Under the pieces are notes generated by a model, which did no database searches, was not told the origin of the DNA, and saw only the letters and a list, made by a program, of their open reading frames with translations. From Terriglobales bacterium (GTDB lineage Bacteria; Acidobacteriota; Terriglobia; Bryobacterales; Bryobacteraceae), in the NCBI GenBank assembly GCA_027485675.1, contig JAIXQP010000033.1, positions 124,001 through 188,000 of the forward strand: a stretch of DNA of 64,000 bases, given 5' to 3'. Below are positions 26,150 through 26,727 of this stretch, one piece after another. Within the stretch, counting starts at the first letter, position 1. Every line of letters starts with the position of its first letter. The position numbers were made by a program, and so were the translations under genes.

Positions 26150-26677
26150 TTACTTCTTTTTGAGGCGCGAACAAACGGCAGCGGTCGCTTCGTTATGCGC
26201 GGCGGGCTTGGGATCAGCGACGATTTCGATGATCTTGCCCTCCTTGTCAATCACGAAGGTGGTACGGCTGGCGATGCCCCGGTCTTCCATCAGGACGCCA
26301 TAGGCCTTGGCCGTGGCGCGATTGGGGAAATCGCTCAACAAAGGAAACGCCAAACTCAGATCATCCGAGAACCGCTTGAGGGATGGGGCTGCGTCGACGC
26401 TGATGCCAAACAGCTGAGTCTCCGACTCATTGATCGTTTGGATTCCAGCCTGGAATCCTTTCATTTCCGCCGTTCAACCACCGGTAAACGCGAGCGGGAA
26501 AAAGGCGAGCACCACATTTTGTTTGCCTTTGAAGTCCGCAAGCGAGAACGATTTGCCGGGAACGGAGGAGGGCAGTTTCTCAAAGCCGGGCGCCATGTCG
26601 CCGACTTTGAGATGGGTCTTTCCGCCCTGGGCAAGAAGCGCAGTGGCGGCGACCAGACTCAAAAACAGAGTTTTCAT
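26150..26677 (-). CDS. Selenocysteine-containing peroxiredoxin (AhpC/TSA-like) with in-frame UGA
   Basis: A 175-residue thioredoxin-fold peroxidase if UGA at 26474-26476 is read as selenocysteine. Residues 1-16 look like a signal peptide. The frame then gives VGDMAPGFEKLPSSVPGKSF, VVLAFFPLAFTGG, UGA (residue 68), TAEMKGFQAG and on to a normal peroxiredoxin C-terminus. In cysteine homologues this segment reads FTGGCTAEM, so the UGA falls exactly on the peroxidatic cysteine. Sequence on both sides stays conserved and in frame, which argues against a decayed gene. A SECIS-like hairpin lies 15 bases downstream. Cys169 (AAVCSR) may be the resolving thiol. An automated call would split this into two fragments. 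Confidence 0.88.
26440..26458 (-). promoter_or_regulatory. Bacterial SECIS element for the peroxiredoxin UGA
   Basis: On the coding strand, 15 bases after the UGA, GGATTCCA and TGGAATCC form a perfect 8-bp stem with the loop GGC. The UGA-to-loop distance of 23 bases and a loop beginning GG fit the published bacterial SECIS pattern (16-37 nt, G-rich loop start). The hairpin lies inside the coding sequence, as is usual in bacteria. Confidence 0.82.
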
Positions 26678-26727
26678 AGTGGACCTCTCCGTTGACTAGT
26701 TTAGTGGAGGCGAGGGCGGATTGGGAA

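Follow-up and report, generated by a model that had tools for sequence, protein, structure and literature searches.

Our analysis indicates that the window studied here, by which we mean the whole stretch of 64,000 nucleotides, carries on its minus strand, at 26150–26677, an intact gene that very probably encodes an exported AhpE-like selenoperoxiredoxin, in which the selenocysteine Sec68 would probably be resolved as a selenenylsulfide with Cys169. We regard recoding of the in-frame UGA as nearly certain. Computation establishes the reading frame and the selenocysteine (Sec) machinery, the conservation of the UGA and of a cysteine, and the constraint on the hairpin; taken together the sequences leave us in little doubt that the protein itself would contain Sec.

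The gene comprises 175 codons and a TAA stop, and its single in-frame UGA lies at 26474–26476. Six nucleotides before the ATG stands GGAGAGG (26684–26690, minus strand), which we take to be Shine-Dalgarno-like. Open reading frame finding under table 11 yields a 104-residue frame beyond the UGA, at 26150–26464; gene callers that read UGA as a stop would thus split the gene, and a widespread enzyme may for this reason be absent from annotations. The first-pass annotation had proposed that two apparent half-genes form one peroxiredoxin if the UGA is read as Sec. Its coordinates were correct, the strand, unstated there, is minus, and the joined product indeed has 175 residues with U68 and an AhpC-TSA domain (Pfam PF00578, 114 bits, cut-off 26). 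With UGA translated as Sec the surroundings of residue 68 read VLAFFPLAFTGGUTAEMKGF, so that the PxxxTxxU motif is present as PLAFTGGU. The gene sits on contig C29 of a 6.59 Mb genome that is 97% complete, and its nearest named relatives are in metagenome-assembled genomes titled Acidobacteria, Bryobacteraceae, Bryobacterales or Candidatus Sulfopaludibacter.

The protein is identified as a peroxiredoxin by homology to AhpE/PrxQ-type members. In a sequence search of the PDB the best matches are the AhpE chains of M. tuberculosis (E 3.5e-21), and in the alignment to AhpE (Rv2238c; PDB 4x1u, 1xvw) FFPLAFTG and the active residue coincide, U68 standing opposite the active Cys; the earlier proposal that the UGA occupies the peroxidatic site is thereby borne out. 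An AlphaFold model of the window protein has a mean pLDDT of 90.3 (below 50 for residues 1–16), and its top Foldseek matches are Sulfolobus Bcp4, which comes first, M. tuberculosis AhpE and Sulfolobus Bcp1, the AhpE chains giving TM scores of 0.72–0.80 by query length. AhpE ranks first in the PDB sequence search, third in a profile search, and is mixed with Bcp in Foldseek; according to a passage in PMC5302317, whole-sequence comparison separates AhpE from PrxQ only with difficulty. Among NCBIfam models the highest score is that of NF006960 (PrxQ/Bcp), 74.7, yet it falls under the cut-off of 140, and the scores for the two selenoperoxidase models encountered, PrxU (NF040737; 50.2 against 270) and Prx-SUH (NF045827; 45.9 against 298), lie far under theirs. 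PDB titles describe AhpE as a 1-Cys peroxiredoxin, and in the present family a second, C-terminal cysteine is conserved. P61, T65 and R138 are likewise conserved, and we presume that they have a catalytic role. Given these residues and the modelled peroxiredoxin fold, the protein is highly likely to act as a peroxidase.

The first-pass annotation had called for a search of the genome for selA, selB, selD and tRNA-Sec, and all four are there: selA scores 454 bits (cut-off 268), selB 380 (cut-off 242), selD 357 (cut-off 125) and a tRNA-Sec with anticodon tca, on a different contig, 70.1 (cut-off 47). The Sec reading therefore does not fail for want of machinery. ARAGORN found no tRNA in the window and none in the stretch around selB. 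Across 150 genomes of the order, selA is matched at E ≤ 1e-40 in 126, in 124 of them above the cut-off; at the same threshold the model matched E. coli alone among 14 control genomes, so the test discriminates. The selD gene of the same genome (L242, C23:56056–56964) has, by direct translation, one in-frame UGA of its own, at U11 of the stretch read, which probably makes it another selenoprotein encoded here.

We searched the 150 order genomes with the window protein and read the codon for residue 68 in the fetched stretches. It is UGA in at least 108 of them, with the frame continuing downstream, and the draw's 12 members of the genus, the source genome among them, all have it. A draw of 199 genomes from the phylum, again with the source genome included and with at least one genome (G003) common to the order draw, gave matches at E ≤ 1e-28 in 38 and none in 161. 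Outside the source genome there were 39 matching stretches in 37 genomes, 35 with UGA and four with a Cys codon, and the 35 UGA loci come from 33 of the 198 other genomes. Further UGA copies occur in named records titled Pyrinomonadaceae (L189), Chloroflexi (L195) and Acidobacteriota or Acidobacteria (L191 and L217). Sequencing error or decay would not explain a UGA kept at one residue across an order and a phylum. UGA copies among the matches listed are found in 102 of the 126 genomes with selA, as against 6 of the 24 without it (Fisher p 1.9e-7, uncorrected for ancestry), and 24 of the 126 selA genomes have no UGA copy among the matches listed. The six UGA genomes lacking selA are fragmented assemblies of 390 to 1080 contigs; selB is above its cut-off in five of them, with a partial match below the cut-off in the sixth (G147), and tRNA-Sec is matched in three and not in the other three. 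In the four Cys-copy genomes without selA (G020, G075, G116 and G031) selB never exceeds its cut-off, and in G031 the match to tRNA-Sec is marginal (49.5 bits, cut-off 47).

Downstream of the UGA lies a hairpin (26440–26458, minus strand) whose stem, GGATTCCA paired with TGGAATCC, encloses a GGC loop at 26448–26450; it starts 15 nucleotides after the UGA, and the loop follows at 23 nucleotides. The constraints on bacterial SECIS elements (bSECIS) set out in a passage of PMC13188914 are a loop of 3–9 nucleotides, a stem of 4–16 base pairs, a G in the first two loop positions, a spacing of 16–37 nucleotides and a minimum free energy of −7.5 kcal/mol or below. The window hairpin agrees with them (3 nt, 8 bp, GGC, 23 nt, −11.1 kcal/mol), so that the stem, loop and spacing put forward in the first-pass annotation fit the published limits. 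An Rfam scan of the window gave nothing above gathering scores, and no library model therefore bore on the hairpin. For the window gene, codons of the same protein redrawn synonymously give an 8-bp stem in 1.1% of 20,000 sequences and an energy equal or lower in 8.9% of 3,000, and against dinucleotide shuffles the z values are −1.5, −2.15 and −3.0 for three window lengths. The folding energy of this gene taken alone is thus the weaker evidence.

What settles the hairpin is a synonymous test over the whole family rather than over the single gene. The set comprised 130 UGA loci, drawn from 108 order genomes and 17 named loci, which became 116 distinct Sec 48-mers when L238, being too short, was left out and duplicates were merged; 21 Cys copies with a GG-C site served as the control. 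The Sec forms have on average 6.56 of the 8 pairs, as against 4.40 on synonymous redrawing (sd 0.07, 300 draws; z about 32), whereas the Cys forms have 2.86 against 2.77 redrawn (sd 0.20; z 0.5), that is, no excess, and 20 of the 21 have at most three stacked pairs. Counted from the loop outwards the pairs are kept in 111, 115, 115, 116, 105, 105, 52 and 42 of the 116 sequences, from which it follows that the inner six form the family core and the outer two do not belong to it. Three core pairs (kept in 116, 115 and 115) show swaps of A-T for T-A and of C-G for T-A. The codons differ in pairs, as TTC..GGA (Phe, Gly), TAC..GGT (Tyr, Gly) and TAT..GAT (Tyr, Asp), and the last, in which Asp replaces Gly and the stem is preserved, is found in 12 distinct 48-mers; these come from L189, L217 and two order-level groups in the draw. 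Among the 26 UGA copies of the phylum draw that have the C-terminal Cys, 23 stack five or more pairs in the same register. The other three, L247, L260 and L279, show no stem in that register, the only one examined.

The C-terminal cysteine, the Cys-form relatives and the spread of the gene through the phylum were overlooked in the first-pass annotation. Cys169 of the window protein, a candidate resolving residue encoded by TGT at 26171–26173 (minus strand), lies in the last helix of the AlphaFold model (residues 158–174). A Cys at +98 to +101 from Sec, near the C-terminus, is present in 128 of the 130 UGA copies, the exceptions being L195 and L238, the latter cut by a contig end, and in 21 of the 23 remaining family copies; among other peroxiredoxins only 2 of 31 have a Cys even at +96 to +105. 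At the other end of the protein stands a predicted signal peptide, MKTLFLSLVAATALLA (26630–26677, minus strand), with cleavage placed by eye before QGG. We scored signals by a home-made rule, which looks for a start codon, a positive residue and a hydrophobic stretch before the domain. The window gene satisfies it, as do 124 of 127 UGA copies (L039, L241 and L195, whose upstream parts are short, are omitted) and 19 of 21 Cys copies; among other peroxiredoxins it holds for 5 of 31. The secretion signal noted earlier for the window gene thus recurs across the family by this rule, which makes export quite likely. In the phylum draw 31 of the 35 UGA loci have a signal-like N-terminus and 26 the C-terminal Cys.

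The phylum draw also contains a second class of UGA peroxiredoxins, UTxEC, with a Cys four residues after Sec and without the C-terminal Cys; its nine loci (L263–L265, L275, L276, L278, L281, L282 and L284) show no full stem in the same register, the only one examined. In L195, on the contig titled Chloroflexi, the active site has divergent surroundings (GGUERELRKF), the C-terminal Cys is missing from its usual place, and the usual register shows no stem.

How would such an enzyme be made and work? Ribosomes supplied with SelB and Sec-tRNA(Sec) would decode the UGA (26476–26474 in the direction of reading) as Sec, directed by the hairpin, and the AhpE-like product would probably be exported by means of its N-terminal signal peptide. 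The Sec68 selenolate would then attack hydrogen peroxide or organic peroxides, and the resulting selenenic acid would probably be resolved by Cys169 of the same or a partner subunit to give a selenenylsulfide, which some extracytoplasmic thiol donor would reduce. Since Cys169 is conserved, the selenenylsulfide is the most likely resolved state, and we somewhat favor Cys169 as the resolving residue. In the flanks of 41 named loci there is no conserved neighbor that is a candidate for the reductant; synteny is seen within the genus, and one long membrane-type protein is common to six other loci.

Copies with Cys in place of Sec allow a look at how the two forms are related. A rapidly built tree, with the active residue masked, covers 125 Sec, 22 Cys and 9 outgroup rows (156 in all). 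It requires Sec and Cys to interchange 11 times, and starred branches force at least four of these changes; several Cys copies, G020 and the Cys copy of L182 among them, lie nested within Sec copies. The tree program warned of long branches, and the outgroup does not fall to one side of any branch, so that we infer the direction of change from the nesting alone. One Cys copy of the 21, in G067 (L144, G067:C18:141781–142263), retains all eight hairpin pairs and looks like a recent Sec-to-Cys change with a relic SECIS. In G022 a second, decayed copy lies directly upstream of the intact gene (L137, G022:C8:143250–143531); its active position is an Arg codon, after which come a stop and a frame break. 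In four relatives from the genus (L036–L039) a Cys peroxiredoxin gene (ICTxQLC) adjoins the Sec gene on the opposite strand.

Could the UGA be something other than a Sec codon? A pseudogene, or a sequencing error that turned a TGC or TGT codon for Cys into TGA, would at first sight look just like this, one early stop in a frame that is open elsewhere, and the decayed second copy in G022 makes decay conceivable. We nevertheless reject this explanation as vanishingly improbable, since at least 108 of the 150 genomes have the TGA at this place and an open frame behind it, and the hairpin is constrained in the TGA copies and not in the Cys copies. We also reject, as very improbable, a UGA read as Trp or Cys through a suppressor or a changed code. 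Its sole support is an open frame under other codes as well; against it stand SelA, SelB and a tRNA-Sec with anticodon tca in the genome, the alignment of the residue with Cys in relatives, and the use of TGA as the gene's own terminal stop in 12 of 127 UGA copies of the family. It is just as improbable that the hairpin is a by-product of the protein sequence and that another signal serves the UGA. The energy of the window gene, matched or beaten in 8.9% of synonymous recodings, would agree with such an origin, as would the 12 of 35 phylum UGA loci without a stem in register (the nine UTxEC loci and three others), but the family-wide z of 32, the paired Phe/Gly, Tyr/Gly and Tyr/Asp differences and the presence of three or fewer stacked pairs in 20 of 21 Cys forms speak against it. 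Thus the Sec reading is upheld by the Sec genes in the genome, by the UGA kept across order and phylum and by a hairpin that co-varies.

A different question is how the oxidized Sec would be resolved. It is possible, if rather unlikely, that the protein works in the one-Cys manner of AhpE, an external thiol reducing Sec68 directly and Cys169 having a structural or other role. The AhpE chains are the closest solved relatives by sequence, the model resembles them at TM 0.72–0.80, and the titles of 1xvw and 1xxu call AhpE a 1-Cys peroxiredoxin. Such a scheme is however at odds with the conservation of the Cys at +98 to +101, which 128 of the 130 UGA copies and 21 of the 23 others possess and which has a counterpart in just 2 of 31 other peroxiredoxins. 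For this reason we retain resolution by Cys169 as the preferred reading.

Sec peroxiredoxins with a TxxU motif are a published family of bacterial selenoproteins (passages in PMC1794560, PMC13188914 and PMC9312934). Twelve members are given at one place in PMC1794560, and a section of PMC9312934 places the family before the predicted ones and cites a protein of Eubacterium acidaminophilum. For Acidobacteria a part of PMC1794560 counts three selenoprotein families and four selenoproteins, unnamed there, and for Occallatibacter a part of PMC12013277 counts three known selenoproteins, also unnamed there. A literature search over titles and displayed abstracts gave none on this acidobacterial peroxiredoxin, of which an earlier record may exist. 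With the published family the window gene has in common PF00578, PxxxTxxU, a UGA at the peroxidatic site and a hairpin that conforms to bSECIS, and it differs in its signal-like N-terminus and C-terminal Cys, in a comparison confined to these features. We conclude that the window gene belongs to the Sec-peroxiredoxin kind and, on that comparison of features, that it may be a variant of it.

From AhpE, which is cytosolic and has Cys where the window protein has Sec, the latter is set apart by its signal-like N-terminus and C-terminal Cys; the alignment ends at window residue 149, so that no counterpart of Cys169 is seen. The same two features and Sec itself distinguish it from the PrxQ/Bcp proteins of Sulfolobus (Bcp1, Bcp4). 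Moreover, the PrxQ-type copies among the stretches read have a second Cys shortly after the active residue, which the window protein lacks.

More generally, we lean modestly towards the proposal that Acidobacteriota share a distinct class of exported selenoperoxiredoxins which, with a peroxidatic Sec and a C-terminal resolving Cys, would act as extracytoplasmic selenenylsulfide peroxidases. In this proposal the in-frame SECIS would dictate one amino acid of the protein, the stem determining whether it is Gly or Asp, and the nested Cys copies would reflect repeated loss of Sec, in one case with the hairpin left behind. If this is true, a phylum represented here chiefly by environmental assemblies would possess a selenium-dependent peroxidase outside the cytoplasm, and one would have to ask which reductant serves its Sec in that location. 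The Sec copies, the Cys copies and the one Cys copy with a relic hairpin would together constitute a natural experiment on the retention and loss of Sec.
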